This document shows, one piece after another, positions 37,108-59,884 of a stretch of 64,000 bases of DNA. The notes below the pieces were generated by a model, which saw only the letters and a list, made by a program, of their open reading frames with translations, was not told the DNA's origin and did not search any database. The stretch covers positions 1 through 64,000 of the forward strand of contig NZ_JAABOQ010000004.1 of the NCBI RefSeq assembly GCF_010671565.1, given 5' to 3'. The position numbers and the translations under genes were made by a program. This stretch comes from Spongiivirga citrea. Its GTDB lineage: Bacteria; Bacteroidota; Bacteroidia; Flavobacteriales; Flavobacteriaceae. Numbering within the stretch: the stretch's first letter is position 1; every line of letters starts with the position of its first letter.

Positions 37108-37494
37108 TTAAACGGATCCTATCACATGTTTTAACGAACCGATTTGATTCTCCCAAAGCATTTTCGCTTCTTCTGTTTCATCTTCCTCAGCAAAATCGCC
37201 GACCATTAATGAAACATCCTTTGTGATTTCATCAACAACGATGCGTAGTTCGAAAAAATAAGGGTCGTCCTCGTCATCTAACCAACGAAACTTAACACGT
37301 TCTCCTGATTTTTTACTTAGTAATTTGGCCTGCTCCTCTGAGTCATCCCAAATAAAAGTAAATAATTCACCCCGGCTGTTTACATTATCGGCAAACCACT
37401 CTGACAAACCGGATGGTGTGGAAATATATTGATACAATAATGAGGGGGATGAATGTATCGGGAATTCAAGTTCAAAGAATGACTTTTTTGGCAT
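37108..37494 (-). CDS. START-like domain protein
   Basis: Start chosen at 37494 (PKKSFFELEFPIHSSPSLLYQYISTPSGLSEWFAD). The longer reading adds 25 residues of untranslated-type sequence. The 128-residue product fits the Bacteroidota START-like (SRPBCC-related) family, with an acidic middle (DDEDDPYFFELRIVVDEITKD). Function unknown. Its 5' end is the source of two degraded copies elsewhere (46321-46427 and 59885-60055), the first of which brackets the nitrate module. A terminator follows directly. Confidence 0.82.
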   Translation of the reverse strand: MPKKSFFELEFPIHSSPSLLYQYISTPSGLSEWFADNVNSRGELFTFIWDDSEEQAKLLSKKSGERVKFRWLDDEDDPYFFELRIVVDEITKDVSLMVGDFAEEDETEEAKMLWENQIGSLKHVIGSV

Positions 37495-37560
37495 ATTCAA
37501 TTTATTATGCAACCAATATAGATAATTATTAGTTAGTTTAAAAGAAAAGAAGAGAAATGA
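37454..37560. repeat. Direct repeat, left copy: 5' end and leader of the START-like gene
   Basis: This 107-bp segment (first 13 codons plus 66 bases upstream of the START-like gene) aligns without gaps to 46321-46427, with 15 mismatches (about 86%). Similarity stops right after 37560. The two copies flank the nap/Moco module in the same orientation. Confidence 0.85.
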
Positions 37561-37637
37561 GTGGCACATGTATGCTATTATGTTGTTTTACAGCTTTATA
37601 TATGACTGTTGTCATAAATTGAAACTACTATAGATTA

Positions 37638-37645
37638 TAAATTTG
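37638..37645 (+). promoter_or_regulatory. -7 element of the 230-residue HTH-like protein gene
   Basis: TAAATTTG is a perfect TAnnTTTG box. A TTG at 37619-37621 gives a spacer of 16 bases, shorter than ideal. It lies 38 bases before the ATG. Confidence 0.4.
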
Positions 37646-37682
37646 AGTGTAAACGGGACTTTTAATTTATAACATAGCAATC

Positions 37683-38375
37683 ATGAATAATTTTAAAATA
37701 GACGAAAAATATCATAAAGAGTTTGGCAAAAAGGTGTTGCATGCGATACCAAGTTTAAACCCATATGTTAAGCATAGATTATATCTAGCAGAAACTGTAG
37801 GGATTGTTCCACGAAAAATGTATCAGACTAATGGAATAATAGATGATGCTATTAGTAACTTATATGAGAACTATGAGGGTTGGCTCAATGATGATGATAA
37901 GATAAAGCTAAAGCTCTTTTCTTTGGTAAATGACAAACTGGATGAGCTATACAAAAAAGAGGGTTTTCATAAAAACACATTGAGCATTAATGAGATTCTA
38001 GAAAAAGAAATGGAGCAGCTTGAAGAAAATTTTGAGAGTGATCTTGATCAAGACCTTTTAATGAAAGATGAACTAGACGATATCTCATATCACCAACATG
38101 ATGACAATTTTGTTTATTTATATGAAGATGCTGAAAAGAACATCATACGATCAATGGAAATTAATGACGATCGAAAAAACCTTACCGAAGAAAGAAGGCA
38201 TGCTTTAAATAAAGTTTATAATTGGTTACCCTTTGAAATATCTAACATTGCAGATCTATACATTTTCGGCAATTTATCTTATAATGAGATCGCACAAATT
38301 AAAAATATAGATCCCCTAGAAGCCCAAAACATTATACAAAACGTGCGAAAAAGCTTTAGAAAGAATTTAAACTAA
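37683..38375 (+). CDS. Acidic helical protein with C-terminal sigma-4-like HTH
   Basis: A 230-residue cytosolic protein. The first 160 residues are acidic and helical. The last 45 (LPFEISNIADLYIFGNLSYNEIAQIKNIDPLEAQNIIQNVRKSFRKNL) look like the region 4 helix-turn-helix of sigma-70-type factors, where the recognition helix follows a Y-N-E-I-A-Q turn. A sigma-like or DNA-binding role is inferred; no region 2 was found. It lies inside the segment flanked by the 107-bp repeats, next to the Moco and nap genes, so it may regulate them. Confidence 0.6.
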   Translation: MNNFKIDEKYHKEFGKKVLHAIPSLNPYVKHRLYLAETVGIVPRKMYQTNGIIDDAISNLYENYEGWLNDDDKIKLKLFSLVNDKLDELYKKEGFHKNTLSINEILEKEMEQLEENFESDLDQDLLMKDELDDISYHQHDDNFVYLYEDAEKNIIRSMEINDDRKNLTEERRHALNKVYNWLPFEISNIADLYIFGNLSYNEIAQIKNIDPLEAQNIIQNVRKSFRKNLN

Positions 38376-38403
38376 TACCAATACCCTTAAGGCGCGGTAT
38401 TAA

Positions 38404-39312
38404 CTAAGAAGCATTTCGTTTTAGTGTTTTAAATACGTGTAAAACAGCAGGGAAAAGAGCGTCCATTGATTCCGAAGCACCATTAGTAGATCCTGGAAGT
38501 GCCATCACAAGCGTATTTTTTATGGTTCCTACTAAACTTCTAGAAAGCATGGCGTAAGGAGTTCTATCTTGTCCGTATTTACGAATTGCCTCTTCCATAC
38601 CAGGAACTGTGCGATCTAATATTTGGGCAAGCGACTCTGGAGTATTATCCTGTTCAGATAACCCTGTCCCTCCTGTAAAAATGATAAGATCTGCTCCTTC
38701 TTTTTGATAGTGTTTAGCTTTTTCCTGAACCATCTCTTCTGAATTAGGAATGGTCACATAATCTATAATATTCACATTACAAGCTTCCAATTTCTCTTTT
38801 ACAGCTTCACCCGCACTATCCGGTTTCCTACCTTCAAAAACTGCATCAGAAGAGACAATAACAGCGGCTTTAACCGAACTTCCAAACTTATTTTTGTAAG
38901 TGGACTTCCCTCCTTCTTTATTATCAAGTTTAATATGATGTATTTCTATTTCTTTATCAATAGGTTTCAGCATATCGTACATATTAACTGCTACGACGCT
39001 AGCTCCATGCATTGCTTCTACTTCAACACCCGTTTTATATATCGTTTTGACGGAAACTATTATCGAAATTTCCAAATCCTTAATTTCAAAATCTATCGAG
39101 GTATGCTCTATGGGCATCGGATGGCAATCAGGTAGAAGATCTGAAGTTTTCTTTACCCCCAATAAACCAGCAGCTTTAGACATGGCAAATACATCCCCTT
39201 TTGGGACTGTCTTATTCTGGATAGCGGTAATTGTCTCCGCCTTACTTACTTTAACTATTGCTTTTGCTGTTGCAGTGCGAAGTGTTGTGTTCTTATGAGT
39301 AATATCGACCAT
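38404..39312 (-). CDS. Bifunctional molybdenum cofactor protein MoaC-MogA/MoaB fusion
   Basis: A 302-residue fusion. The N-terminal part (about 1-145) is MoaC (cyclic pyranopterin monophosphate synthase) with LLPDCHPMPIEHTSIDF and GVEVEAMHGASVVAVNMYDMLK. The C-terminal part (about 147-302) is a MogA/MoaB-type domain (molybdopterin adenylation) with VIVSSDAVFEGRKPDSAGEA and IIFTGGTGLSEQDNTPE. Both steps feed molybdenum cofactor, needed by NapA encoded nearby. It lies 39 bases downstream of the ModE-like gene on the same strand, so both are probably one transcript. Confidence 0.93.
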   Translation of the reverse strand: MVDITHKNTTLRTATAKAIVKVSKAETITAIQNKTVPKGDVFAMSKAAGLLGVKKTSDLLPDCHPMPIEHTSIDFEIKDLEISIIVSVKTIYKTGVEVEAMHGASVVAVNMYDMLKPIDKEIEIHHIKLDNKEGGKSTYKNKFGSSVKAAVIVSSDAVFEGRKPDSAGEAVKEKLEACNVNIIDYVTIPNSEEMVQEKAKHYQKEGADLIIFTGGTGLSEQDNTPESLAQILDRTVPGMEEAIRKYGQDRTPYAMLSRSLVGTIKNTLVMALPGSTNGASESMDALFPAVLHVFKTLKRNAS

Positions 39313-39351
39313 AATGAGTACTTGAATTGTAATTTTAGTGGAATACTGGTT

Positions 39352-39692
39352 CTATAATTCTTCAATAAGCTTTAATTCCTCATCTAAAAACATCCAGCAA
39401 TTTTGATTAATCACATCAAAAGCATTTATTAGCTTTTTGCCATAAGGAGTTAGTTTAGTACCTCCTCCGCTTCTGCCACCAGCTATCTTCTGTACAACTT
39501 CTTTTTTGGCTGACCTATTTACAGAGTCAACTAATGTCCAAGCTTTTTATAAGACATGTTAATTGATTTTGCCGCTTGAGAAAGAGAGCCTTGTTCGTCG
39601 ATTGCTTTCAATAAGACGACCCGACCTTCGCCAAGTAATACATTGTCACCAGCCTCAATCCAGATTCTACTTTTTATACTGTACCTCTTCAT
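39352..39692 (-). pseudogene. ModE-like winged-helix regulator, frameshifted
   Basis: Translating the minus strand from ATG at 39692 gives 50 residues ending SYKK, then a TAG at 39531-39533. Adding one G at about 39541-39544 (AAG CTTGG to AAG GCTTGG) restores a continuous 113-residue ModE N-terminal-type domain through AWTLVDSVNRSAKKEV, KIAGGRSGGGTKLTPYGKKL and a stop at 39352. The GGRSGGGT wing and the SLSQAAKSINMSYKK helix are the ModE landmarks. It has only the winged helix, no molybdate-binding (MOP) domain, as in many Bacteroidota relatives. A single-base assembly error is possible. Confidence 0.82.
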
Positions 39693-39979
39693 TTTGTTTA
39701 ACCTTGTAAGCTGTTTAACAAAGAATAAAAAACAATTAATTTCTATTTTTTAATTAGTATATTATTTCTCCTTCTCAAACAATACATTAAATAAATCGAG
39801 AAGCATTAAAAAACCTCAAAGTATTTATTTTCAAGTAAATATAATGCAGTTTTATTTATTCAAATTATGATAAAAGTCATGATTTCATTTCTTATAAATC
39901 ATCAATTTTACTATCTTAAAGAAATGTTAGCTCGTTTATTTAAACAAAGCGCTAAACGTTAAACAAAACTATCCATCCT
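39693..39979. promoter_or_regulatory. Divergent control region of the modE-like and nap genes
   Basis: 287 bases between the modE-like start and napD. Paired direct repeats sit directly before each start: on the modE side GTTAAACA at 39712-39719 and 39695-39702 (minus strand, 17 bases apart), and on the nap side TTTAAACA at 39939-39946 and GTTAAACA at 39958-39965 (plus strand, 19 bases apart). They may be operators for a shared regulator. No perfect TAnnTTTG box was seen. Confidence 0.4.
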
Positions 39980-40216
39980 ATGCCAATAAAAAGTTACCTA
40001 GCACACCCACATGATGGCAAGAAAGAGCAATTACTACAAGATTTGTCCATAATTCAAGAATGCGAGGTACTACCCGCAGAAAATCGCGATATACTTATTC
40101 TAGTCACTGACACTAAGGATGATCATTCCGAGGTCGAACTTGAAAAAAAATTAAAAACTATAAAAAGTCTGAAATTATTAGCAATGGTATCGGGCTTCAA
40201 TTCTAAGCAAAACTAG
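39980..40216 (+). CDS. napD: NapD-like Tat-signal chaperone
   Basis: A 78-residue protein with NapD pattern: an opening MPIKSYLAHPHDGKKEQLLQDLSIIQECEVLPAENRD and a closing KTIKSLKLLAMVSGF beta-strand. NapD binds the NapA twin-arginine signal peptide to delay export until cofactor is inserted. It is the first gene of the nap operon and ends seven bases before napA. Small size makes recognition partly dependent on the neighbour. No metal ligands are expected in the family. Confidence 0.82.
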   Translation: MPIKSYLAHPHDGKKEQLLQDLSIIQECEVLPAENRDILILVTDTKDDHSEVELEKKLKTIKSLKLLAMVSGFNSKQN

Positions 40217-40223
40217 CGCGCTT

Positions 40224-42551
40224 ATGTACACTTCATTAACCAATAGAAGAGAGTTTATTAAGAAAATGGCAAAACTATCTGCCATGGCAGCCGCCGCTTC
40301 TATGTTTCCGGGAATCATATTTGCTGAAGAGCAAGAAGCAGGGATTCCAGCTGATGCCAAGTTAGATTGGAAGAAAGGTCCTTGTCGTTTTTGCGGCGTT
40401 GGATGTGGTATTTTGGTGGGCACAGAAAATGGCAAAGCTGTAGCTGTAAAAGGAGACCCTAAATGCGAAGTCAACAAAGGACTACTTTGTGTAAAAGGAT
40501 ACCATCAAACAATGTGCGTTCAAGCTAGGGATCGTTTAACACATGCCTTGGTAAAGAAAAATGGACGATACGTTAAAACCCCGATAGATGAAGCACTCGA
40601 TCTAGTTGCCTCAAAAATGAAAGAGACAATTGAGAAGCATGGTAAAGATTCAGTTGCCATGTACACTTCTGGTCAATCCACAATTCCGGAAGGATATGTT
40701 GCATCCAAATTAATGAAAGGTGCTATTGGTACTAACAATCTTGAATGTAATGCCCGTTTATGTATGGCAAGTGCAGTGGCGGGATTCTTAACCACTTTTG
40801 GTACAGATGAGCCCATGGGGTGTTATGAAGATATTGACCACGCAGATTACTTTGTTACCTGGGGAAATAATATGGCAGAAATGCATCCGGTATTATTCTC
40901 AAGAATGCTAGAACAAAAAAGTACACGTGGTGCTAAAATAATTGACTTTGCTACGCGTACATCACGATCAAGTGGTGCATCAGACAGGTCAATTTTATTT
41001 GAACCACAAACCGATCTTGCCGTCGCAAATGCCATTTGCTATGAGATCATAAATAATAATTGGATGAATAAATCCTTTGTTGAGAAACACTGCAATTTCA
41101 GCAAAGGCCTTACCAATATGGGTTATGGTACTGAAGATAAATACAAATTCAGTGACAAACCAGAAAAAGTAGACTTTGAAGCTTATAAAGAATTTCTAAA
41201 AGATTATACCCCCGAAAAAGTAGCAAAATACTCAAAGGTATCTGTAAAAGACATTAAGTACTTAGCGGCTATTTACGGCGACCCTAATAAGAAGGTGGTT
41301 TCCTATTGGTGCATGGGAGTTAATCAACATACCCGGGGTACATGGATGAATAATCTTATCTATAATATGCACTTGCTGACCGGCAAGATCTCGCAACCTG
41401 GAAATGGTCCTTTTTCATTAACTGGACAGCCTTCCGCCTGCGGTACTGCTCGAGAGGTGGGTACATTCACTCATAAACTACCTAAAGGGGTTGTGATGAA
41501 TGAGAAGCATCGTCGTTTAGCGGCTAAAATATGGAAAGTTCCTTACGAGAATATCCCTTCAAAACCGACCTATCACACTACCGAAATGTTTCGCGCGGTA
41601 GATCGCGGCGATATCAAGTTTATTTGGACACAAGTTACTAATCCATTGGTTTCATTACCAAAAACAAGTCGATATCGCCCAGGGATGCAAAAAGATTCTT
41701 GCTTTGTGGTGGTTTCTGATGTGTTTCCTACTCCAACATCTGATGTTGCCGATGTTATTTTGCCTGCATCTTGGCATATAGAAAAAGGAGGCATATACGG
41801 AAACTCCGAGCGAAGAACCCAATATTGGGATCAAATGGTCGAAGCACCTGGAGAAGCCACTCCCGATGCCTGGATGACCATTGAGATCGCCAAACGAATG
41901 GGATTTGGAGAGTTATTCCCATATACAAGAGAAAATCATGTTGATGAAATTTACAATGAATATCGTCAGTTTCATGAAGGTGTTAAGCACGGCATGGCGC
42001 CATTAGACGTTCTTAAAAAAGAATCTGGTGTTATTTGGCCATATGTAGACGGTAAATCTACACAATGGCGTTTTAATGCAACATACGATCCAGCCTGTGA
42101 CAATGGTGAAGATTTTCATTTTTACGGCAAACCGGATGGGAGAGCAATTATTTGGCTACGTCCATTTGAACCAGCCGCCGAATCACCTGATGATGAATAT
42201 CCATTCTGGCTAAATACAGGGCGCGTTGTTGAGCACTGGCATACTGGCTCAATGACAAGACGAATCCCAGTATTACATCAAGCAATGCCAGCCGCTTATG
42301 TTGAATTTCATCCAGATGACGCAAAAAAGCTTGGGGTAAGAAATGGAGAAAAAATAAAGGTATCATCAAGAAGAGGTTCTTGTATTTTGCCCGCTTCTAT
42401 CAACGAACGTGGTCTTCCAACAAGGGGGCAGGTTTTCGTTCCCTTCTTTGATGAGAACATGCTGATTAATGATGTTACCCTAGACGCTTTCTGTCCAATA
42501 TCAAAAGAACCGGACTTTAAAAAGTGTGCCGTTAAAGTCGAAAAAGCATAG
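40224..42551 (+). CDS. napA: Periplasmic nitrate reductase catalytic subunit NapA
   Basis: A 775-residue molybdopterin oxidoreductase. The N-terminus has a twin-arginine signal (NRREFIKK, Arg8-Arg9) with a hydrophobic stretch to about residue 34. The 4Fe-4S cluster ligands are Cys54, Cys57, Cys61 and Cys89, followed by Lys91 (VKGYH). The Mo-ligand cysteine is Cys180 in NARLCMASAVAGF, and DEPMGCYEDI follows, all matching NapA rather than formate dehydrogenases. It reduces nitrate to nitrite at Mo-bis-MGD in the periplasm. Electrons probably arrive through the multiheme subunits encoded downstream. Confidence 0.94.
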   Translation: MYTSLTNRREFIKKMAKLSAMAAAASMFPGIIFAEEQEAGIPADAKLDWKKGPCRFCGVGCGILVGTENGKAVAVKGDPKCEVNKGLLCVKGYHQTMCVQARDRLTHALVKKNGRYVKTPIDEALDLVASKMKETIEKHGKDSVAMYTSGQSTIPEGYVASKLMKGAIGTNNLECNARLCMASAVAGFLTTFGTDEPMGCYEDIDHADYFVTWGNNMAEMHPVLFSRMLEQKSTRGAKIIDFATRTSRSSGASDRSILFEPQTDLAVANAICYEIINNNWMNKSFVEKHCNFSKGLTNMGYGTEDKYKFSDKPEKVDFEAYKEFLKDYTPEKVAKYSKVSVKDIKYLAAIYGDPNKKVVSYWCMGVNQHTRGTWMNNLIYNMHLLTGKISQPGNGPFSLTGQPSACGTAREVGTFTHKLPKGVVMNEKHRRLAAKIWKVPYENIPSKPTYHTTEMFRAVDRGDIKFIWTQVTNPLVSLPKTSRYRPGMQKDSCFVVVSDVFPTPTSDVADVILPASWHIEKGGIYGNSERRTQYWDQMVEAPGEATPDAWMTIEIAKRMGFGELFPYTRENHVDEIYNEYRQFHEGVKHGMAPLDVLKKESGVIWPYVDGKSTQWRFNATYDPACDNGEDFHFYGKPDGRAIIWLRPFEPAAESPDDEYPFWLNTGRVVEHWHTGSMTRRIPVLHQAMPAAYVEFHPDDAKKLGVRNGEKIKVSSRRGSCILPASINERGLPTRGQVFVPFFDENMLINDVTLDAFCPISKEPDFKKCAVKVEKA

Positions 42552-42554
42552 ATT

Positions 42555-43268
42555 ATGAAAAAACGACTCGGCATTATATCATTCTTTGTGCTCATTTTAG
42601 CAGGTTTTATCATTAATTGGAATTACAGCTATCAAAAAGGTCTGGAAGAAGCCTATATTCCATTAATTGAAAACCCTTCAGGAAATTATCTTTCCTCAGA
42701 AAGAGGTGTTTTTAGACAGGCGACATTTGAGTTTAATTACTCCGATATGCCAGTTGATCCTGCTCATGAGCGTACTATAAAAGATTATTACAAGAACAGG
42801 GCTTATCTCGGTGCACCACCAAGCATTCCGCATCCATTATTAAAAGGAGAACGAGGTGTTGGTGGCACTAGTTGTTTGCAATGTCATCAAAATGGTGGCT
42901 TTGTAGAAAAATTTAAAGCCTATGCTCCTGTCACTCCGCATCCCGAAATGGTTAACTGTCGGCAATGTCATGTAGCACAAAATAGTACAAGCCTTTTTAA
43001 GCAAGTATCTGTTGAAAGAATAAATCCCCCCGGCGTTGGTAAAGGTGCTAATAATGCATTACTCGGCAGTCCTCCGATGATTCCTCACGGATTACAAATG
43101 CGCGAAAATTGCATAGCCTGTCATGCAGGACCAGGTGCTGTTAAAGAATTGAGAGTTTCACACCCAGAACGTATTAACTGTAGACAATGTCATTTACCAA
43201 AAGAAATGACTGGGATACCATTAGATACAACGAAGATTCTGAGACAATTCGATAAGCTAAATGAATAA
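42555..43268 (+). CDS. napB: NapB-like cytochrome c, duplicated (four hemes)
   Basis: A 237-residue protein with an N-terminal membrane anchor or signal (about 1-22) and four CxxCH heme sites at residues 107-111, 135-139, 186-190 and 209-213. The C-terminal pair lies in a segment close to NapB (IPHGLQMRENCIACHAGPGA and SHPERINCRQCH). The first pair is a weaker copy (IPHPLL...SCLQCH, and PHPEMVNCRQCH), so the protein looks like a tandem-duplicated NapB. Ordinary NapB has two hemes and about 150 residues. It starts three bases after napA and overlaps the next gene by eight bases. Confidence 0.88.
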   Translation: MKKRLGIISFFVLILAGFIINWNYSYQKGLEEAYIPLIENPSGNYLSSERGVFRQATFEFNYSDMPVDPAHERTIKDYYKNRAYLGAPPSIPHPLLKGERGVGGTSCLQCHQNGGFVEKFKAYAPVTPHPEMVNCRQCHVAQNSTSLFKQVSVERINPPGVGKGANNALLGSPPMIPHGLQMRENCIACHAGPGAVKELRVSHPERINCRQCHLPKEMTGIPLDTTKILRQFDKLNE

Positions 43269-43896
43269 TTCAACAAAAATATATCTGCTACTATTTCTGG
43301 TTTCACTAACCATTATTAGCTGCAAGAAAAAGGACGAATACCACAGTTTGGATGAGCGCATACATGCTGAGACCAGAACGGGAGCAAATGGTGGTGTCAA
43401 TTCAGAGATACTTCTCTCCGACAAAAACCTAATGGAAATTACTGAGGGGCATCATACTTTTTTAATTCCGGAACGCAAAGGAGAATTAACATCCTATTCA
43501 TGTACTGAATGTCATAACAAACCGCTCAAGCAAATAGCGAGTAGTGATATTAAAAAAGCACATTGGAATATTAAAATAAACCATGCAGGCAGTGAGGTTA
43601 TGAATTGTGCTACTTGCCATAATGGTAATGACATGAATAATCTTGTTAGCCTTACAGGAAAGAAAATAGATTTTAATAAGAGTTATAAGCAATGCGCTCA
43701 ATGCCATACCGTTCAATTTGAAGATTGGAAAGGAGGAGCACATGGTAAAAAGCTCGCTGGTTGGGCTCCACCGAGAGCTTCAATGACCTGTGTTAATTGC
43801 CATAATCCTCACGAGCCGAGTTTTGATCAACGGTGGCCAGTGCGTTTCAATAGTGAAAAAGTTCAAGAACGAAAAGACGGTTTCGAATTCAAATAA
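43261..43896 (+). CDS. Tetraheme cytochrome c lipoprotein
   Basis: A 211-residue lipoprotein (lipobox LTIISC, Cys21) with four CxxCH sites at residues 81-85, 116-120, 145-149 and 177-181. The mature protein is hydrophilic. It lies between the NapB-like and iron-sulfur genes and probably carries electrons between the membrane NrfD/FeS module and NapA. No NapC-type membrane cytochrome is encoded here, so this protein may take that place. It overlaps the preceding gene by eight bases. Confidence 0.87.
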   Translation: MNNSTKIYLLLFLVSLTIISCKKKDEYHSLDERIHAETRTGANGGVNSEILLSDKNLMEITEGHHTFLIPERKGELTSYSCTECHNKPLKQIASSDIKKAHWNIKINHAGSEVMNCATCHNGNDMNNLVSLTGKKIDFNKSYKQCAQCHTVQFEDWKGGAHGKKLAGWAPPRASMTCVNCHNPHEPSFDQRWPVRFNSEKVQERKDGFEFK

Positions 43897-43903
43897 TATA
43901 CCT

Positions 43904-45049
43904 ATGAGCGAAGAAAAAAAATGGTACAACTTCGATTTGGGGTTTACAAAACAAACTGCAAAAACAGGCACATGTGGTTGTGGAAAAAGCGAAGGCAGCT
44001 GTGGTAGCAAACAACAACCAAAAACAACTATTCAGAAAGAAGAAATAAGCGAAGAAGCATTCTTTGAAGCTGCAGTTGATGCTTCAATAGGTGAAGAACG
44101 ACATAAAGACGGCTTCGATCAGGTATTTGAGGTCAAGATGGATCGACGCTCAGCGTTCAGAAAACTAACAGCTAGCTTACTTATCGGAGCTGGTGCTGTG
44201 AATACAAGTTGTAGCATTACCGCTGGTGATGCTTCCAAAGAAAAAGCACAAATAGACTGGGAAGAGCAGTTTAAAGGTAATTACAAATTAATGACCGATG
44301 ATGAAAAGGAAGCAACCGTTAACCGCTTAATGAGATCATATGAGCTGCGTACGGGCAAAAACCTAAGTATGACCGCAGAAAATGCGAAAGAAAATGTGCT
44401 TTTTGGCTATGCTTTTAATATTTCTAAATGCCAGGGATATATGAACTGTGTCTCTGCCTGTGTAGAGGAGAATAATCAGGATAGAAATTCCCAGATGCAG
44501 TACATCCGTATTCATGAAATGAAAGATGGTAACGGTTTCAAATTTAATGATGCCGACGACAATTATTACCACGAAGTTCCCGCCGAAGGTCATTTTTATA
44601 TGGGTACGCAGTGTTTTCATTGCGACAACCCTCCTTGTGTAGATGTATGTCCAGTTCAAGCCACTTGGCGCGAAGATGATGGACTGGTCGTAATCGATTA
44701 TGATTGGTGCGTTGGTTGTCGTTATTGTATGGCGGCGTGTCCTTACGATGGTAGGCGTTTTAATTGGAGTAAACCAGAAGTTCCGGAAAAAGAGGTCAAT
44801 AAAAATCAGCATTATCTAGGAAACCGCGTGCGTAAAAAAGGTGTAATGGAAAAATGCACCTTCTGTGTTCAACGCTCTAGAAAAGGAGAAAATCCTGCAT
44901 GTGTTGACGCATGTCCAACAGGTGCACGAATTTTTGGGAACCTACTGGATCCAGATAGCACGATACGTTGGGTTTTAGAAAACAAAAAAGTATTTCGATT
45001 AAAAGAAGACCTGGGTACTGAACCCAAGTTCTGGTACTTTATGGACTGA
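43904..45049 (+). CDS. 4Fe-4S dicluster electron-transfer subunit (NrfC/ActB-like) with Cys-rich N-extension
   Basis: A 381-residue protein starting at 43904 (SEEKKWYNFDLGF); a longer upstream reading overlaps the cytochrome gene out of frame and is not supported. Four ferredoxin-type cysteine clusters occur: near residues 176-186, 237-249 (CFHCDNPPCVDVC), 269-279 (CVGCRYCMAAC) and 318-337 (CTFC...CVDAC). A twin-arginine motif (DRRSAFRKLT) starts at residue 80, followed by a hydrophobic stretch. An 80-residue N-terminal extension contains a CxC and a third Cys (24, 26, 33). It passes electrons between the NrfD quinol oxidase and periplasmic cytochromes. Confidence 0.88.
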   Translation: MSEEKKWYNFDLGFTKQTAKTGTCGCGKSEGSCGSKQQPKTTIQKEEISEEAFFEAAVDASIGEERHKDGFDQVFEVKMDRRSAFRKLTASLLIGAGAVNTSCSITAGDASKEKAQIDWEEQFKGNYKLMTDDEKEATVNRLMRSYELRTGKNLSMTAENAKENVLFGYAFNISKCQGYMNCVSACVEENNQDRNSQMQYIRIHEMKDGNGFKFNDADDNYYHEVPAEGHFYMGTQCFHCDNPPCVDVCPVQATWREDDGLVVIDYDWCVGCRYCMAACPYDGRRFNWSKPEVPEKEVNKNQHYLGNRVRKKGVMEKCTFCVQRSRKGENPACVDACPTGARIFGNLLDPDSTIRWVLENKKVFRLKEDLGTEPKFWYFMD

Positions 45050-45065
45050 TCAAAAGCATAAAAGC

Positions 45066-46292
45066 ATGAGACGATTTAAAGTTTTTAAGAGTTTAGTTAC
45101 CGACAGTCTGGATACAATTACCACAGGCTCTAAACGATATCATTTATGGATGGGCCTCCTGACAATCATTATGCTCGCTGGAATGTATTGCTACTCGATA
45201 CAACTTGATGAGGGCTTAAGCGTTACGGGAATGACAGACCGAGTTAGCTGGGGGCTGTATATATCAAATTTTACCTTTCTGGTTGGAGTTGCCGCGGCGG
45301 CTGTAATGCTCGTAATGCCGACCTATATATTGAAAGATATTGACTTTAAACAAGCAGTTCTTATTGGCGAAGGCCTTGCGGTGGCAGCATTAATAATGTG
45401 TTTGGCCTTTGTAATTGCCGATATGGGCGGACCCGCCGTATTATGGCATATGATTCCAGGTATTGGTGTTTTCAACTTTCCAGATTCCATGCTGACGTGG
45501 GATGTGATCGTGCTTAACGGCTATCTGTTCTTAAACATCAGTATCCCATTTTATATCCTGTTTAGACATTATCAAGGCAAAGATTCAAATCCGAAGGTTT
45601 ATATCCCAGGAGCCATATTATCGGTATTTTGGGCAGTAGCAATACACTTAGTAACGGCTTTTTTATATCAAGGTTTACAGGCACGACCATTTTGGAACAA
45701 TGCTTTATTAGGGCCACGCTTTTTAGCATCGGCTTTCGCCGCCGGACCGGCACTAATCATTCTTGTACTAGGAATAATTAAATCCTTTTCATCTTTTAAA
45801 GTTAAAGATGAAACTATCAAGAAAATTGCGATGATTGTGACGGTGGCCGCTCAAATCAACCTGATCATGCTAATCTCTGAATTGTTCAAAGAATTCTACG
45901 CACCTACCCACCATAGTGAAAGTGCATTCTATCTATTCTTTGGTCTACATGGTAAAACAGCCTTACTGCCTTGGATATGGACTTCTATAAGTCTTAATGT
46001 ACTCGCAGTGGTGATGTTAACTTTTGGAAGATTTAGAAACAATTTTAAGACCTTGTATTTCTGTTGTTTTATTCTGTTTGTGGCTATTTGGATTGAAAAG
46101 GGATTTGGCTTAATCGTTCCAGGTTTTATTCCTGGGCCTTATGGTAAAATTGCTGAATATACACCAACTGGAATTGAGATTGGTGTTACACTGGGAATAT
46201 GGGCACTTGGGGCTTTTGTATTTACAATACTTGCTAAAACTGCCATTGGCATTGAAACTGGTGAGATGCGATATGGCAAGAAAACTTCCTAA
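45066..46292 (+). CDS. NrfD/PsrC-family membrane quinol oxidoreductase subunit
   Basis: A 408-residue integral membrane protein with about ten predicted helices and the NrfD/PsrC/DsrP pattern (YHLWMGLLTIIMLAG, WGLYISNFTFLVGVAAAAVMLV). Subunits of this family oxidise quinol and hand electrons to a partnered FeS protein, here encoded 16 bases upstream. It is the last gene of the nap operon. Together with the FeS subunit it probably replaces NapC or NapGH as the quinol entry point. It lacks heme ligand motifs. Confidence 0.9.
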   Translation: MRRFKVFKSLVTDSLDTITTGSKRYHLWMGLLTIIMLAGMYCYSIQLDEGLSVTGMTDRVSWGLYISNFTFLVGVAAAAVMLVMPTYILKDIDFKQAVLIGEGLAVAALIMCLAFVIADMGGPAVLWHMIPGIGVFNFPDSMLTWDVIVLNGYLFLNISIPFYILFRHYQGKDSNPKVYIPGAILSVFWAVAIHLVTAFLYQGLQARPFWNNALLGPRFLASAFAAGPALIILVLGIIKSFSSFKVKDETIKKIAMIVTVAAQINLIMLISELFKEFYAPTHHSESAFYLFFGLHGKTALLPWIWTSISLNVLAVVMLTFGRFRNNFKTLYFCCFILFVAIWIEKGFGLIVPGFIPGPYGKIAEYTPTGIEIGVTLGIWALGAFVFTILAKTAIGIETGEMRYGKKTS

Positions 46293-46320
46293 TCTAGAAT
46301 TACCGTTTTTAAATTATAAA

Positions 46321-46427
46321 TGTATCGGGAATTCAAGCTCTAAGAATGACTTTTCTGGTATAGTCAATTTACTATTCCACTAATACATACAATTATTAGT
46401 TAGTTTAAAAGAAAACTAAAGAAATGA
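46321..46427. repeat. Direct repeat, right copy: START-like 5' fragment with lost start codon
   Basis: Aligns gaplessly with 37454-37560 (15 mismatches of 107). The position of the START-like ATG (minus strand, 46359-46361) reads ATA here, so this copy cannot initiate. It lies 28 bases after the last nap gene and 109 bases from the ompA-like stop. Confidence 0.85.
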
Positions 46428-46535: not shown

Positions 46536-48476
46536 TTAATCTATTCTAGTAATAATAAACTCCGATCTCCTATTTAAATCATGCTGATTATCAGTACAGT
46601 AGACATTATTAGAACAACTATTCAATAGTTTTGTTTCACCATAACCAATAGCACTTTCTATTCTAGATTCCTCTATTCCTTGAGAAATGATATAATCACG
46701 TGTAGATTTAGCACGTTCATCCGACAATTTTAGGTTATATGAATCGACTCCACGCGCATCAGTATGTGATTCTATTTTAATGATCATTTTGGGATATTTA
46801 GTCATTATATACACCACCTTATTTAGTTCAGAGGCTGCGTCAGAGCGTATATTTGATTTATCAAAATCAAAAAAGATAATACCCACGTCAATTTTAAATT
46901 GATTATCATCTTTGACTATAAGGTCGTCAAGTTTTTTAATTCCTAAAGGAACGCGATTTACTTCGCCATTTCTTGTTTTAGTAACAAAAGACTTACTTGA
47001 TTTCTCAAAACCATCTTTAGTAGCAACTACTTTATAGTTGGTTTCACAATTTGCTTCAAAATCAAAATGGTATTCTCCATTTGCGTTTGTAGTGCTTGAA
47101 TCTACTTCATTTCCTTTTTCGTCAAAAAGTGACACCTTAATGCCACTTTCAGGAATCCCATTTTGTGCATTGGCCACTGTTCCTTCAACTTCTTGTAAGC
47201 AGACTACCTTAATTCTTTGAAAAGAATATATATCATCGTCCCCTATGCCACCATCTCTATTGGAAGAGAAATATCCCCTTTGAGTATCCTCATCAACAAT
47301 ATAAGCGAAATCATCTTTTTTTCCATTTAGAGGTTTTCCCAGGTTTTCAGGTTCAGAAAATGAGTTTTGAATCTTGCTTTCAAATACATCTAATCCGCCA
47401 AGACCCAAATGCCCATCAGAAGCAAAATAAAGCTTGTTATTTGTAATAAATGGGAACATTTCCCGCCCTGCGGTATTAATAGTTGGACCAAGATTTTTCG
47501 GAGTTCCATAAACATCATCTCCTTGAATATCTACTACAAAAATATCAGTCCCCCCAATTGTTCCTGGCATATCTGACACAAAATATAGCTTTTTGCCGTC
47601 TTTGCTTAACGATGGGTGTCCCACCGAATAGTAATCGCTATTAAAAGGTAATTCTTGAACATCCGTCCAAATACTATCTTTTAGTACCGCCTTGTATAAT
47701 TTAAGATGATTCACACCTTGATCATCTCTTTGTAACTTACTTTTATTGTTAGCAATATTATTTCTTGTAAAATATATTGTTTTTTGATCGGGAGTAAAGG
47801 CGACAGCTGCTTCATGATATTTGGTACTTACTTCTTCCGAAAAATCGGTTTTGTTAGTCAAATCAACACTGGTTGAGTCCACATCAGCTATAAATAAATT
47901 TAAATATGGCTGTTCATTCCATTTATAATTTCTCTTATGAAAAACAGACTGATTTTTAACCGCTGCAAAAACAACTTTGTCTTCATAAAACATTGGAGCA
48001 AAATCTGAGAATTTGGTGTTGGTTGCAACATTTGCTATGTAAAACTGCGGTTGTGCGTTCACAATTCGGTCAATATTAGTATCATTATTTTGAAACTGAT
48101 CGACATTAAAACCACTTGTATCTAACTTATCACCATAGATTTTCATTAAGCCTTTTGCCAAATCGTAATCACCAATACCCTGCAATGAGTGAATGTAACG
48201 AAACGCATAAGTCGGACTTAATCTATTTTCATATTTAGAAAAGAGAATGCCATACCAGCGTGAGGCATTTTGCATATCAGTATTAAAGTAATAAGCATCA
48301 CCTACTTTTTGCAGTAACTCTTGTGAGTTATCTCCGCCTTTTACAGCGGATTCATAATGTTCAGCGGCTTCGATATACCACATTTTTTCGAAAAGCTGAT
48401 CGGCTTTTTTATACTTGCTTTGTGCACCTAGTCCTAGACTAAGTAATACAATTAAGTTTAGAATACGTTGTTTCAT
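46536..48476 (-). CDS. OmpA family protein with PD40 propeller (PorE-like)
   Basis: A 646-residue exported protein starting at 48476 (KQRILNLIVLLSLGLGAQS signal); a longer start at 48488 overlaps the porP stop in a TAATG arrangement and cannot be excluded. Domain order: TPR-like helical repeats (about 20-130), PD40/WD40-like propeller (about 200-420), a carboxypeptidase-regulatory-like beta domain (about 430-520) and a C-terminal OmpA peptidoglycan-binding domain (about 540-646; ESHTDARGVDSYNLKLSDERA). This design matches PorE-type T9SS-associated proteins. It is third in the adhesin-PorP-OmpA operon. Confidence 0.88.
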   Translation of the reverse strand: MKQRILNLIVLLSLGLGAQSKYKKADQLFEKMWYIEAAEHYESAVKGGDNSQELLQKVGDAYYFNTDMQNASRWYGILFSKYENRLSPTYAFRYIHSLQGIGDYDLAKGLMKIYGDKLDTSGFNVDQFQNNDTNIDRIVNAQPQFYIANVATNTKFSDFAPMFYEDKVVFAAVKNQSVFHKRNYKWNEQPYLNLFIADVDSTSVDLTNKTDFSEEVSTKYHEAAVAFTPDQKTIYFTRNNIANNKSKLQRDDQGVNHLKLYKAVLKDSIWTDVQELPFNSDYYSVGHPSLSKDGKKLYFVSDMPGTIGGTDIFVVDIQGDDVYGTPKNLGPTINTAGREMFPFITNNKLYFASDGHLGLGGLDVFESKIQNSFSEPENLGKPLNGKKDDFAYIVDEDTQRGYFSSNRDGGIGDDDIYSFQRIKVVCLQEVEGTVANAQNGIPESGIKVSLFDEKGNEVDSSTTNANGEYHFDFEANCETNYKVVATKDGFEKSSKSFVTKTRNGEVNRVPLGIKKLDDLIVKDDNQFKIDVGIIFFDFDKSNIRSDAASELNKVVYIMTKYPKMIIKIESHTDARGVDSYNLKLSDERAKSTRDYIISQGIEESRIESAIGYGETKLLNSCSNNVYCTDNQHDLNRRSEFIITRID

Positions 48477-48487
48477 TACTAGCGCCA

Positions 48488-49405
48488 TTAAAAGAATCTT
48501 GGGGATTTAACTTTACTTTCAGCGGATTTCAACTCAAAACGCAGCATGATCTCATGTGTACCATTATTATAATTTCTCAAGTTGCTTGTGGTAAAATCAT
48601 AAGCATAGCCAAGATGAAGTTGATCTGTTAGCTGCAAGCCTATCAATCCGCTAAATGAATCATTCCAGCGATACGCAAGTCCCAAAACGAACTTTTCATT
48701 AAACATAAAGTTTGCAGACAAATCTACAGACAATGGAGTCCCTTCAACGTATTTCATATAAGCAGCTGGCTTGAACTTAGTTTTTTGAGAAAGATCAAAT
48801 ACGTGCCCAGCTATAAAGAAAAAATGTAACCGTTCTGCCGCTACCGACTCTTGAATTTCATCATAATGATCTTGTGCAAAAATATTGGGTACAGAAAGCC
48901 CGACATAGGTTCGTTCCCCATAAAGATAAGCACCAGCCCCAATTGTCGGGAAAAACTCGCTAACATTCTGTTGAAATATTATATCTGGGTTATCTGTAAT
49001 ACCACGTGACCAATCAATATTAAAAAAACGCCCACCAGCTTTTAAGCCTAGTCCTAAATTCCAGAAGTCATCAACTTTTAAGGTATAAGAAAAGTTTACA
49101 TCTAAGTAAGTTTCACTTGACGGTCCCAACTCATCATGAAGCACTTGCAAACCCAAACCAACATTTTTACCTATCGGAGAATCTGCACTAAATATTGATG
49201 TCTGTGGTGCCCCATCTAAGCCAACCCATTGTGTTCTATGCAAACCATAGACTACTAGATTTTCTCGAGAACCTGTATAACCCGGGTTAACACTCATTAC
49301 ATTATACATGTACTGTGTAAACTGTGGGTCTTGCTGGGCATTCATCTGTAAGGTACTCGATACAAAGCCAAGGAGTACAAGCATTTTTATATATGGTACT
49401 TTCAT
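48488..49405 (-). CDS. PorP/SprF family type IX secretion-associated outer membrane protein
   Basis: A 305-residue protein with its start at 49405 (KVPYIKMLVLLGFVSSTLQMNAQ signal peptide, preceded by an AAAGAGC Shine-Dalgarno-like run); longer starts run into the adhesin stop. Characteristic PorP/SprF sequence begins right after cleavage (QQDPQFTQYMYNVMSVNPGYTGSRENLVVYGLHRTQW), then beta-barrel segments. Family members sit beside type B T9SS substrates and hold them at the surface. The adhesin ends 42 bases upstream and the OmpA gene overlaps its stop. Confidence 0.9.
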   Translation of the reverse strand: MKVPYIKMLVLLGFVSSTLQMNAQQDPQFTQYMYNVMSVNPGYTGSRENLVVYGLHRTQWVGLDGAPQTSIFSADSPIGKNVGLGLQVLHDELGPSSETYLDVNFSYTLKVDDFWNLGLGLKAGGRFFNIDWSRGITDNPDIIFQQNVSEFFPTIGAGAYLYGERTYVGLSVPNIFAQDHYDEIQESVAAERLHFFFIAGHVFDLSQKTKFKPAAYMKYVEGTPLSVDLSANFMFNEKFVLGLAYRWNDSFSGLIGLQLTDQLHLGYAYDFTTSNLRNYNNGTHEIMLRFELKSAESKVKSPRFF

Positions 49406-49446
49406 TTGCTCTTTTTTAACTATCAATTTCATCATCTCCATCTTCA

Positions 49447-52400
49447 TTATCGGTTTATGTATAACCATCCTGCTCTTGGCTCAGAGCCATCGCCTAGATT
49501 CAAAATATAATAATATGTACCCACGGGTAATTTCTTTTCTGGATTAATGGTCACACGACCATTTGACGTTCCGTCCCAATCATTATTATATCCATTGGCT
49601 TCAAAAACAATGTTACCCCAACGGTTGTAAACCTCAAGTTTATTATTTGGAAACCTCGAAATACAATCGATTGTGAAGAAATCATTCGTACCATCTCCAT
49701 TTGGAGAGAATTCATTAAATATTGTCAAGCATTGCGGTGAAACCATGGCATCTGCCTGATCATTATCCGGATTAACATCCGATTGATCAACTGAAATCAA
49801 GCTTGCGACATTTACATAGTTGTCCGCATCCAACACAGTAACCGTCATTGATAACGTTTCGGTGATACTTGCATCTACAGCCGCAATAGTCCAGAAGCCT
49901 GTTGCCTCGTCATAAATTCCGCTTGAAGTTGTTGCCGACACAAACTCATATCCTGAGGGCAATGCATCTTGTATCACTACATTGGTTGCATTTAGAACGG
50001 TACTATTGTTAGTAGCAGTTATAACAAAAACTACCGTGTCACCAATATCAGCATCCGAATTATCCACAGTTTTTGAGACAGCAATATCTACTGTTTGTGG
50101 AGTTACTATTACGGTAGCTTCATCGTCGTCTACTATACCATCCGCATAATCATCTATATCAAACCCATCAGCAACTACACTATCAGGATCTGCCTGATCC
50201 GCAGCTGTTATCTCAACGTTATTAATATACTCATCAGCTATTCCTGATGGTGAATTAACTTCAGCTAAAATGATAAGTGATTCTGTATTACCATTTACAA
50301 CAGTACTATTTAATGTCCATTGTCCATCTACTTCATTATAAAGACCCGCAGTCGATATATAAGAACTGAACGTATACCCTGCAGGAAGTAGATCAGTCAC
50401 CACTACTCCAGTAGCATCACTATCTCCGCTATTGGTTAAATTGATCGTAAACTCAACCATATCACCAACCAATGGCGTAGCATTATCTACTGATTTTGTA
50501 ATCGAAAGATCTGCCAAACCTGTTGGTCTTGGATTGATCGTTTCCTGATCATCTTCAGAATCAATATTATTATCTGGATTTGAATCAGGATCGAAAGTAT
50601 CCAACGCGATTAATTCTGCTGTATTATTATAATTTCCTGTTGGTAATACGGTTACAGTAATGTTAATTGTTTCTGTAATTCCGTTTGCAAGATTACCAAC
50701 GTTCCATGATCCAATAGCCTCATCATAAATTCCTGCAGAGGCTGTCGCAGACACAAATTGATATCCAGACGCTAACTGGTCTTCAACTACTATTCCCGTT
50801 GCATCACTTGGTCCATTATTGGTTACAGTTACTGTAAAGGTAATTTGTGAACCTACAGTTGGATTTAGATTGTCAACCGTTTTTGTCACCTCAATATCCG
50901 TAATTACTCTTGGGAATACCTGAACTTCATCTTGATCATCCTCACTTAATACATTATTGTTTGGTGTTGAATCAGGATCAATCTCATTAACAGCTGTTAC
51001 TTCAGCTACGTTTAAGTAACTTCCAGTTGTATTTATGGAAACTGTGATATCTATTGTCGTCGATGCACCACTAGCCAGACTTGCAATTGACCACAACCCA
51101 GTGGTTGAATCATATGCTCCGCCACTAGTATCAGAAACCCAATTAAATCCACTTGGTAATGCATCAGTAACTACGATTCCAGTTGCTTCACTAGGTCCAT
51201 CATTGGTTAGCGTTAAGGTAAATGTGACTAGATCTGTAACATCAGGGTTCAAATTATCAACGACCTTTGTTAAGGAAAGATCTGAAATTGGAACCGGTAT
51301 TGTGATCGCATTATCATCATTATTAGTGATATCAGAATCATTATTATCAGATGCTGTAATCGCTGCCGTATTATTATAATCACCTGTTGGATTTACAATT
51401 GCGGTAATAGTTAAGCGCTCAATATCACCTTGGACAAGTGTTCTGGTAATTCTCCAAAGTCCAGTTACTTCATCATAAATTCCAGCTGTTGCCTCGAAAG
51501 AGACAAAGGTGTATCCTGAAGGAAGTAAATCAGTAACTTCAATACCTCTTGCATCACTTAAGCCTAAATTTTCAACAAGAATTTCAAATTGAACGGTTTC
51601 TCCGACGTTTGGTGTTGGATTGTTAACTGTCTTAGTTAATGCTAAATCCGATACGCTAACCGGAACCGGCTCAATTGTTTGTTGATCATCCTCCGTATCG
51701 TCATTATTTGCTGGTACTGAATCGATATCGGGTTCAGTAGCATCAGTAACTTCAACTTTGTTACTATAATCACCACTTTCAAGTACTCGAGCGGTTATAG
51801 TAATTGTTTCTGTCGTACCGTTTGGTAAATTACCAATAGTCCATGATCCGTTTAATGGTTCATAACTTCCTATTGTAACCGTATTACTTAAATATTCATA
51901 GCCACTAGCCAATAAATCAGTAACTACCACATTTGTTGCATCACTCGGCCCGTCGTTAGTAACAGTCATTGTAAATACAATCTGACCTCCTACATCTGGT
52001 GTCATCGTATTTGCTGTTTTTGTTACCGATAGGTCAATGCGCGGTGTCAATTGTGGTATCACATTTACTTCATCTTGGTCATCCTCAGCTAATACTCCGT
52101 TATTTGGTGTAGAATCGAGATCAAGGACATCTGTTGCTGTTATTTCAGCATCATTTAGGTAATTTCCGGTTTCATTTACTAAAACATCGATTAAGAGGGT
52201 CTCAGTTGATCCTGAAGCTAGATTACCAACTGTCCAAACTCCAGTGTTTTCATCATAGAACCCTGTTGTTGAACTATATAAGATAAAATCATATCCATCT
52301 GGAAGTAAATCTTCAACAATTACACCAGTAGCATTTGCAGGACCATCATTGGTTACTCTAATTTCAAATGTGATTTCAGTTCCTGTGAATGGAGTTACAT

Positions 52401-55400
52401 CATTATCAACTACCACTTTCGTCAGTGAAAGATCGGCTACATCAACATAATCGACTACAACAGTTACCTCATTTGAAATATTTCCATCATTATCGGCTAC
52501 AGTGTAGCTTATTGGAGTAGGATCTGTAATAAATCCTGGTTCTGGAGCAAAAGTTAAATCACCTATTGCAGGATCGTATGTCCATAACCCTTCTCCTGGA
52601 ACTTCAAATGAAGTTACATCTCCATCACCATCTGTAACAACATTAATTGCTCCTGTCGGTACAATAAGATTCACGCCATTTGGATCTAATGTACCATCTG
52701 GATCGTTGTCATTACTCAGAATAGCAATAACTACGTCATTATTTGGATTATTATTTAGACTTTCGTCGTTTACTGCAACCGGATCAATTAGATAATCCAA
52801 GGTTACGGTCGCAGTATCACTTAATCCTGTATCAAGATCAGTTAACTCATAAACAATCGGAGTGGGATCATTATCAAAACCAGACTCTGGTGCAAAGCTC
52901 AACTCACCCGTTGAAGGATTGTAGGTCCAAGTGCCCTCACCTGGTATACTGATCGTGTTCTGTACCCCGGCTGTGCCTGGGTCTAAGTCTACCGTTACAT
53001 CCGATGGTGTTGGGGTACTACCATCTCCCAAAGTGTCATTGGCCAAGATATCCAATACCGTATCGGCTCCTTGTGGGGTTGATACCGCATTAGCATCATT
53101 GGTCGCTACTGGATTCGTGGCCGTGTACTCTATGTTTACTGTCGCTGCATTACTCGTATTACCATCATTGTCATCGACCGTATAAGTGATGTCCGTTGGA
53201 TTGCCCGTAAAGCCTGCAGCTGGTGCAAAGCTTATATTACCTGCACCATCATAACTCCATACCCCTTCGCCTGGTACTTCAAAGCCCGTCACATCGCCAT
53301 CACCATCAGTCGTGATATTAATCGCTCCCGTTGGAGTGCTTAAGTTCACACTTGCATCATCAATCGTTCCATCAGCATCCGTATCATTTACTGTAATGTC
53401 AACTACTACGGTAGCTCCTGCAGTGTTGGCTGTACTACTGTCGTCTACCGCTACTGGTAGTTCTTGGTACGTCACTGTTACTGTCGCAGTATCACTTAAG
53501 CCCGTATCTACATCCGTTAGCTCATAGGTAATGGCTGTTGGACTACCCGTAAAGCTCGGTTCTGGTGCAAAGCTCAACTCGCCTGTGGATGGATTGTAGG
53601 TCCAAGTACCCTCACCTGGTATACTGATCGTATTCTGTACCCCGGCTGTGCCTGGGTCTAAGTCTACCGTTACATCAGCTGGTGTTGGGGTACTACCATC
53701 TCCCAAAGTGTCATTGGCCAAGATATCCAATACCGTATCGGCTCCTTGTGGGGTTGATACCGCATTAGCATCATTAGTCGCTATAGGTGCGGTGGCAGGT
53801 ATATAGGTAATATTAATATTCGCTTGATTACTTATATTACCGTCATTATCATCTACTGTATATTGAATATCAGTCGGGTCTCCTAAAAAGCCAAATTCTG
53901 GATTGAAACTTAAAATCCCAGTAATATTAACATATACATAATTACCTTCTCCCGGTACATCAAAGCTTATAACATTTCCATTGGCATCCGTAACAATATT
54001 AATAGCCGTACCTGGAGGAATTAAGTCAACAGACGTTGGGTCAATCGTATTATTTCCATCCGCATCTGTATCATTTGCCGTTAAATCAAGGTTTGCTGTT
54101 GAAACAGGCGCATTATTTAAACTATCATCATCCACAGCAACTGGAGGTGATTGATAGTTGATAGTTATAGTTGTCGGAGCACTTACAGCTGTATTGTTAT
54201 CCGCGTCTGTTATTGTATAATTAATTATAGATGGATTTCCAACCAAATTAGCATCCGGCACGAAAGTCACTAAACCGGTTAATGGATCATAGGTCCAGGT
54301 ACCTTCATTTGGTATGATAACAGATGTATCAACAACACCTGGGGTACTCGGATCGAGATCAACAATGACATCAGTTGGGAGCGGCGTTGAGCCATCACCT
54401 AAGGTGTCATTAGTCAAAATGTCTAATACTGTATTATCTCCAGGGGAGGTTGGTATCACATTCTCATCAGCTACCGCAATAGGATCAACCGGAGTATATG
54501 TAATTGTTACAGTGGCTTGATTACTTGTATTTCCATCATTATCATCGACCGTATATTGAATTGGTACAGGATCACCTGTAAAACCATCAGCTGGATCAAA
54601 GCTCAATAATCCGGTTGTGTCATTATAAAACCATACGCCCTCACTAGTCTCAAAGCCTACTATATCACCTTGTACATCAGTAATTACATTTGTTTCGCCT
54701 CCTGGCAATATTAGGTTAACTGTATTAATTTCTACTGTACCATCCACATCAGTATCTCCGTCAATTATGTTTACAAGTACAGTCGCTCCAACAGTATTTC
54801 CTAGGCTGGAATCATTATCTGCTACAGGCGGATCGTTCGGTAAAATAGTTATAGCCACGGAGCTCTGATCATCCTCTGCTCCTAGGTTATTATTTGGAGT
54901 AGAATCGGGATCGAATTGATCCGACGCTGTAACCTGAGCAGTATTGTTATAGTTTCCGGTGGCATTTACAGTAGCCTGAAAAGTAAGACTAACTGTATTT
55001 CCGTTGTTAATAGTTAAATTAGACCAGGTAATGGAAAAATTCCCGGCATTATATACACCTCCGTTACTGACTGTACCAAAGACAAGGGTATATCCTGAAG
55101 GAATAAAATCTTGAACAATTACGCCTGTTGCGTTACTATTTCCATTGGCGTTGTTATTAAATAAGTCAATAGTAAATAATATCGTTTCTCCCACTTTAGC
55201 TGAAGTTGGGTTAACTGATTTTGTAAGTTCTAAATCAGAAATTCCAATAACATCAATTTGCACTGTATCCGAAACTACAGAACATATTCCGTTAGTAACT
55301 GTCCATTGAAATATGTATGTCCCCACGGTAGTACCTGTAACCTGAGAATTAAAGCTATTTGGGTTTAAAATAGAAGCCGTATTGGGTCCAGATACTTGAG

Positions 55401-59517: not shown

Positions 59518-59547
59518 AAGAACGGGTAAAATTAATGGGGTAAACAA

Positions 59548-59884
59548 AATAGGTACAAAACAACTATTTTTTTTTAAGAAACCATTAACATTTTGAAATA
59601 AAAACGTGTAGTTTCAGGTTTAAAGGTTAAATTTATCGTCAAATAACATTAAAATAAACTTAAATTACCCTAAGCAACAATTAGTGAAACAACATATATT
59701 TAGCATTTAACGAATACCAATATGATTAGGGTTCGTAGATAGGATGCTAACTTAAAAAGTATCAAATTCCTTATGTTACTAATTGTCCAGAATGACACTA
59801 ATAAAACCTCTGATTTTTAAACCGTCGAAAATTAAAAAATAAACCCATAATCATATTATGGTTTAACCGCATTTTTAGCTTTTA
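59548..59884. other. Gene-free stretch upstream of the adhesin
   Basis: AT-rich sequence with a small hairpin (CCATAAT at 59845-59851 pairing with ATTATGG at 59855-59861 around CAT). No frame of note. It should contain the adhesin promoter, but no perfect TAnnTTTG was found. Confidence 0.45.

Follow-up and report, generated by a model that had tools for sequence, protein, structure and literature searches.

The microcin H47 island of E. coli is a 13-kb element that lacks a recombinase of its own and is delimited by imperfect direct repeats of 148 and 144 bp that are 76% identical; its excision and integration have been shown by experiment (PMC3191183, PMC5426353). A second point of reference is ICECleSHZ29, an example of the integrative and conjugative elements (ICEs) that use tRNA-Met-CAT in Flavobacteriaceae and their relatives (PMC12561888). 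Here, we analyze a stretch of 64,000 nucleotides from Spongiivirga citrea (contig NZ_JAABOQ010000004.1, positions 1 to 64,000 of the forward strand; hereafter, the window), in which the 5' end of a START_2-domain gene (START) is present in two copies that flank a segment of ~9 kb with the genes for a periplasmic nitrate reductase (nap). Like the microcin H47 island, this segment has long imperfect direct repeats at both ends (112 bp, 86% identity) and no recombinase recognizable by Pfam, and the island is the closest published parallel found (PMC3191183, PMC5426353). Unlike in the island, however, the repeat consists of the front part of a gene that is still intact, the remnants are layered, and mobility is only putative. 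With ICECleSHZ29, the locus shares the tRNA species, which lies in the hisS-START interval and in some relatives has an integrase beside it, whereas it differs from the element in showing neither a visible integrase nor tRNA-derived repeats, its repeats being derived from START (PMC12561888). No published account of such an insertion at a START gene was found in the literature, judged mostly by titles and the beginnings of abstracts.

Copies of the START 5' end and the segment between them

On balance, we favor the view that START has received two or more insertions at its 5' end, the nap segment being the most recent, with the front of the gene duplicated and the joining driven by homology. 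START and the copies of its 5' end are located as follows:

37108..37494, minus strand: intact START_2-domain gene, 128 amino acids (aa; Pfam PF19569, E 8.9e-44), adjoining pabC as in relatives
37449..37560, minus strand: left repeat copy, with the promoter region plus codons 1 to 15 of the intact START
46316..46427, minus strand: right repeat copy, a dead START 5' end with an ATA start
59872..60073, minus strand: third, older START 5' remnant (-22 to +184, with stops, 66% identity)

The direct repeat is a gapless block of 112 bp with 96 identical positions (86%) and 16 differences, and it contains the 107-bp repeat with 92 identities and 15 differences that an earlier note on this DNA had reported correctly. 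It spans positions -66 to +45 of START (taking the A of ATG as 0), and its left and right copies match with an E-value of 4e-28 in a blastn comparison over 100 kb of the S. citrea contig. The right copy, called a scar in the note, carries ATA in place of the ATG start codon, and four of its five coding differences, the start codon among them, alter the encoded residue. These residue-changing differences fit pseudogene-like decay in place of a displaced gene end, so that the right repeat looks like the former START 5' end. The two copies known to the note are an incomplete count, because a third one, first detected as a protein-level match with eight stops, lies further out and retains 66% identity over 208 nt. 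The three copies thus show a graded decay (intact, 86% and 66%), with the most decayed one furthest from START, an order that fits successive insertions at one gene end.

Chance similarity as the origin of the repeats is ruled out by reversed-query controls. When 101 START loci or intervals (1.26 Mb of upstream DNA, with some genomes represented twice) were each searched with their own START 5' DNA, the nap-flanking pair of S. citrea scored 6e-29 and its third copy 1.7e-19; the next best real match, in locus L103, reached 4.8e-5 and the best reversed-query control 6.2e-5. S. citrea was the only genome in this set to stand above the controls.

The segment bracketed by the repeats contains a helix-turn-helix (HTH)-like gene, moaC-mogA, a modE-like gene and the nap operon:

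37683..38375, plus strand: HTH-like gene without a Pfam match; its sigma-70-like NCBIfam matches are weak and fall short of the cut-off
38404..39312, minus strand: moaC-mogA fusion (Pfam PF01967, MoaC, and PF00994, MoCF_biosynth)
39388..39722, minus strand: gene that we take to be modE-like, frameshifted; homology to a gene of relative G280 in two frames
39980..40216, plus strand: presumably napD-like gene, named from its position; no Pfam or NCBIfam match, present in 20 of 20 fetched nap loci
40224..42551, plus strand: napA, catalytic subunit of the periplasmic nitrate reductase (Pfam Molybdopterin; NCBIfam NF010055)
42555..43268, plus strand: napB-like cytochrome gene (Pfam PF03892, NapB)
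43261..43896, plus strand: multihaem cytochrome gene of the nap operon (Pfam and synteny)
43904..45049, plus strand: ferredoxin gene, presumably NapG-like (Pfam Fer4 families)
45066..46292, plus strand: NrfD-family membrane subunit gene (Pfam PF03916; NCBIfam DsrP above the cut-off)

The gene content given in the earlier note is borne out by the Pfam matches (MoaC, MoCF_biosynth, Molybdopterin, NapB, Fer4 and NrfD), with the correction that the modE-like gene is frameshifted, its homology being split between 39722-39543 and 39546-39388. NapA exceeds the cut-off of the NF010055 equivalog model (961 versus 904 bits) and is up to 89% identical to its counterparts in relatives. The NrfD-family gene stops 23 nt short of the right repeat. 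In agreement with the note, which had seen neither transposase nor integrase, Pfam revealed no recombinase and no transposase in START or in any of eight segment proteins, a set drawn from unbroken frames that are not very small, and none of 12 pairs of inverted repeats sits at both segment ends. A module borne by a transposon or insertion sequence finds no support, as these searches gave neither terminal inverted repeats nor a transposase. As separate observations, the nap operon looks intact despite the frameshift in the modE-like gene, and its membrane subunit passes the cut-off of the DsrP model (sulfate reduction complex) rather than that of a NapH model.

START and nap loci in related genomes

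The surroundings of START are well conserved. Among 80 named Flavobacteriaceae loci, the best matches listed, pabC directly follows START in all 80, and YqgE (78), HU (74), fmt (75) and recQ (75) are its other neighbors on this side, with several of the misses caused by contig ends. On the upstream side, 113 of 117 loci have a tRNA-Met(CAT) gene on the opposite strand, 119-295 bp away from START; some genomes appear twice in this set, and in four of its loci no tRNA was seen within 400 bp, one of them (L115) comprising only 147 bp of upstream DNA. The order in relatives is hisS, tRNA-Met, START, pabC, so that the old neighbor of START was not ompA, as the earlier note had supposed, but tRNA-Met followed by hisS. 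The distance between hisS and START is 231 bp in locus L096 and 10 to 58 kb in nine fetched intervals, which were chosen for the right order of the two genes on one contig; one locus comparison took in 48 of 50 loci.

In S. citrea, by contrast, tRNA-Met is inverted relative to hisS and START, and a gap of 28 kb separates it from START. The gap holds two adhesin/PorP blocks and the nap segment, with START 5' remnants between the blocks, so that hisS and the tRNA gene sit on the far side of the stack. Read from the tRNA towards START, the order is adhesin2-porP2, oldest remnant, adhesin1-porP1-ompA, second remnant and nap segment:

46536..48488, minus strand: ompA-family gene (Pfam PF00691), adjoining the adhesin block
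48488..49468, minus strand: porP1 (Pfam PF11751)
49447..59547, minus strand: adhesin1, 3366 aa, a name that we presume from inspection of the sequence
60201..61115, minus strand: porP2 (Pfam PF11751), 42% identical to porP1
61126..64000, minus strand: adhesin2, extending past the window, with two overlapping frames near 63134-63183
65637-65712 of contig C12 (5638-5712 of locus L119), minus strand: tRNA-Met(CAT), beyond the window
66740-68113 of contig C12, minus strand: hisS, beyond the window

Searching 397 family genomes with the S. citrea START 5' DNA, and scoring two candidates per genome, yielded a match at E<=1e-12 in 303 of them, S. citrea included. S. citrea alone has two matches. The other 302, none of the same genus, show a single match each and may represent the empty site, but START adjoins the tRNA in 113 of the 117 loci examined and does not do so in S. 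citrea. The earlier claim of an insertion that duplicated its target therefore stands in that the START 5' end is duplicated around nap, uniquely in the family genomes searched, whereas its portrayal as a single event does not. The START 5' end as a family-wide attachment (att) site finds no support, extra copies having been detected in S. citrea only.

The nap genes occur in 54 of 299 family genomes, S. citrea included. Of the other 53, 22 were re-examined for START, and 21 of these gave a START match, on the nap contig at a distance of at least 157 kb in eight cases and on another contig in 13. In 20 nap loci, each fetched together with several kb of flanking DNA to the left and right, neither START, pabC, porP, ompA nor the HTH gene was found, and nap, moaC-mogA and the HTH gene were likewise absent from the 80 best-matching START loci, 57 of which include more than 9 kb of upstream DNA. 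In relatives, nap comes after a set of molybdenum cofactor (Moco) genes. In locus L190, this set comprises moaC-mogA and genes that we take to be moaE-, moeB-, mobA-, TauE-, modE- and moeA-like, and nrfHA follows nap. In four genomes (G280, G310, G017 and G226, with the nap position in G226 taken from the family-wide nap search), one long block runs from pabB through the HTH gene and tilS to additional genes, among them a purine/xdh-like stretch, and on to the Moco set and finally nap.

The HTH gene has its usual place in this block. A homologue lies between pabB-like and tilS genes in seven of eight relatives fetched around it, and among the 13 genomes besides S. citrea that combine nap with a strong HTH match (E below 1e-40), the two are found within 61 kb on one contig in ten, about 300 and about 340 kb apart in two, and on different contigs in one. 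The S. citrea protein is 57% identical to its best match and 40-47% identical to many others, and its gene is likely orthologous, by sequence, to the pabB-tilS gene of the relatives. The pabB-tilS slot of S. citrea itself (contig C10, locus L282 6981-10597) contains an alpha/beta hydrolase gene, as identified by Pfam, in place of the HTH gene; a separate, divergent Moco cluster lies on contig C15, and nrfHA-like genes are found on C11. Compared with the long block, the S. citrea segment has the same HTH, moaC-mogA, modE, napD-like and nap genes, collinear except for the strand of the HTH gene, but it is shortened to 9 kb, its modE is frameshifted, and it is located at START. Also missing are the genes, presumably moaE-, moeB-, mobA-, TauE- and moeA-like, that in those relatives separate moaC-mogA from modE and modE from nap. 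The segment thus resembles a shortened version of the pabB-HTH-tilS-Moco-nap block in which the HTH gene is on the other strand. Its usual slot being empty of the HTH gene hints that this gene moved together with nap, which would tie an uncharacterized sigma-70-like HTH family to nitrate respiration.

A foreign origin of the module is not supported by its sequence. A composition test, as proposed in the earlier note but made here for nap against core genes, gave no hint of foreign DNA: the difference in guanine-plus-cytosine (GC) content between nap and core genes is +0.041 in S. citrea and, on average, +0.042 (standard deviation 0.023) in 19 relatives. The S. citrea nap identities to 19 genomes follow the family trend (residual z from -1.6 to +0.3), albeit a loose one (r = 0.65 over 190 pairs). 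The genomes in this trend were drawn from the 22 re-examined nap genomes, without G308, which has no START match, and without G025 and G323. Neither foreign composition nor, within this loose trend, an excess similarity of nap to any sampled donor was thus found. Both the GC offset and the nap identities speak against recent transfer from any of the sampled genera; the module may have been relocated within the genome or acquired from a close lineage outside the sample.

Proposed insertion at START and competing explanations

The favored reading would proceed in steps. An earlier insertion at START would have brought the adhesin1-porP1-ompA block and left the copy at 59872-60073; the segment with the HTH gene, moaC-mogA, broken modE and nap would then have been inserted at the 5' end of the same gene, so that START would be intact inside the insertion and its former 5' end (-66 to +45) would persist as a dead copy on the outside. 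The remnants would consequently be layered, with the oldest furthest out. Since the third remnant lies beyond the adhesin1-porP1-ompA block, the nap insertion would be the younger of at least two events. By the most likely route, the DNA that arrived would have borne a START 5' stretch and been joined by recombination through this homology, because no recombinase was found among the window proteins tested and no tRNA-derived repeat in the interval. It could have entered as a circle by a single crossover or in linear form, with homology at one end and an illegitimate join at the other. The equation of decay order with arrival order, the homology-driven mechanism and the source of the module are all inferred. 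In favor of insertion speak the three graded copies, the hisS-tRNA-START order in relatives, the position of the S. citrea hisS and tRNA genes beyond the stack, the pseudogene-like decay of the right repeat, the pabB-tilS slot that lacks the HTH gene, and the lack of a second copy or of START-linked nap in the relatives tested.

Several points weigh against this reading. The analysis turned up no circle, no donor and no other genome that carries the module at START, and the 397 genomes include none of the same genus and hence no before/after pair. The search of these genomes is blind to the oldest S. citrea copy, so that decayed remnants elsewhere may be missed; moreover, the assemblies are drafts, and 13 of the 21 nap-START checks rest on different contigs. 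Simple synteny does not hold throughout, as hisS lies elsewhere by its coordinates in many other loci (in L104, at a distance of 778 kb and on the opposite strand, provided that contig C2 is the same one). To judge by the inverted tRNA, one or more inversions also shaped the region, and some junctions are possibly products of inversion or deletion. Ordering the events by divergence assumes that the duplicates were identical at the start, and a donor-derived START 5' end would void 14% and 34% as ages; the earlier statement that the 14% divergence marks an old event is therefore weak and valid only if the copies began identical. Finally, no 3' half of START could be recognized next to the oldest copy, the score there being equaled by ~7% of random segments, so that this remnant may or may not derive from a whole START pseudogene.

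The conserved tRNA invites an alternative in which the hisS-tRNA-Met interval is a tyrosine-recombinase site where ordinary integrase-bearing islands delivered cargo, an inversion then moved it between the tRNA and START, and the integrases were lost, with the START fragments arising as by-products of rearrangement. At nine START loci, proteins of one cluster (one of them a fragment) are encoded beside the tRNA, and the single member run against Pfam gave phage-integrase matches, one above the cut-off; the 3' half of the tRNA recurs 22 and 33 kb away (27/27 and 38/39 bp) at two of these loci, for which the distal end was retrieved; and a published ICE uses tRNA-Met-CAT in Chryseobacterium (PMC12561888). 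The S. citrea tRNA is inverted with cargo at its 3' side, adhesin2 adjoining this end while the nap segment does not. However, no tRNA 3'-half fragment rises above shuffled controls between 37000 and 65600, the START-flanking repeats consist of START 5' DNA, and no recombinase was recognized by Pfam among the tested window proteins. In addition, simple inversions with staggered breaks give inverted rather than direct duplications. We therefore regard this scenario as unlikely. The repeat as an att site of the neighboring integrase elements was set aside, their repeats being the tRNA 3' half. SXT inserts at prfC and restores the gene end with its own copy, and a mobile element that has since lost its integrase could similarly have targeted the START 5' end. 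The repeated use of one gene end, the intact new and displaced old 5' ends, and the imperfect repeats, which fit attL and attR, agree with this idea, but the other 396 family genomes contain no second START 5' match and no integrase was seen beside nap or the adhesin1 block. Plasmid and phage collections, searched for START 5' fragments, returned only three distant matches (38-41% identity), each covering at least 86% of the protein and thus no 5' fragments, and an element of this type seems quite improbable.

It is also conceivable that nothing was inserted and that START was tandem-duplicated with its flanks and then trimmed, or that relatives contributed whole START-bearing neighborhoods by exchange. 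Each of the two remnants is located immediately beyond the 3' end of an adhesin block, which makes block-plus-START units imaginable, and in locus L090 porP-ompA stands upstream of tRNA and START with the same orientation. Yet, PorP1 and PorP2 share only 42% identity, the START pieces are the sole similarity between the blocks at E<=1e-4 in 36.9-69 kb, which leaves a tandem adhesin-porP duplication without support at the DNA level, and the nap-flanking homology ends at -66, where a trimmed tandem copy would need an additional precise deletion. We consider this route improbable. If, instead, the nap segment was inserted through START homology, the locus would offer a stepwise example of a respiratory module moving in the Bacteroidota without a visible mobile element. 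In any case, it illustrates that direct repeats close to a tRNA hotspot are not necessarily att sites of that tRNA. It is tempting to speculate, even if we find it rather doubtful, that the START 5' end serves as a recombinase-free docking site, into which modules carrying a START 5' stretch recombine, each arrival rebuilding a working gene and leaving the old 5' end behind in a layered record, with possible exit as a circle.

Further observations near tRNA-Met

The split of adhesin2 at 63134-63183 falls within near-identical repeats and may be a real frameshift or an assembly collapse. Three of the START loci without tRNA-Met within 400 bp upstream (L044, L088 and L097) are other possible sites of hotspot rearrangement. 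Elements with an integrase-like gene next to tRNA-Met occur in two loci, L095 of Olleya sediminilitoris and L111 of Winogradskyella marincola, where the 3' half of the tRNA is repeated at distances of 22 and 33 kb. Lastly, the gap between tRNA-Met and hisS in S. citrea contains three similar small open reading frames of 53-55 aa on the opposite strand (L119 5954-6735, corresponding to C12 65954-66735).

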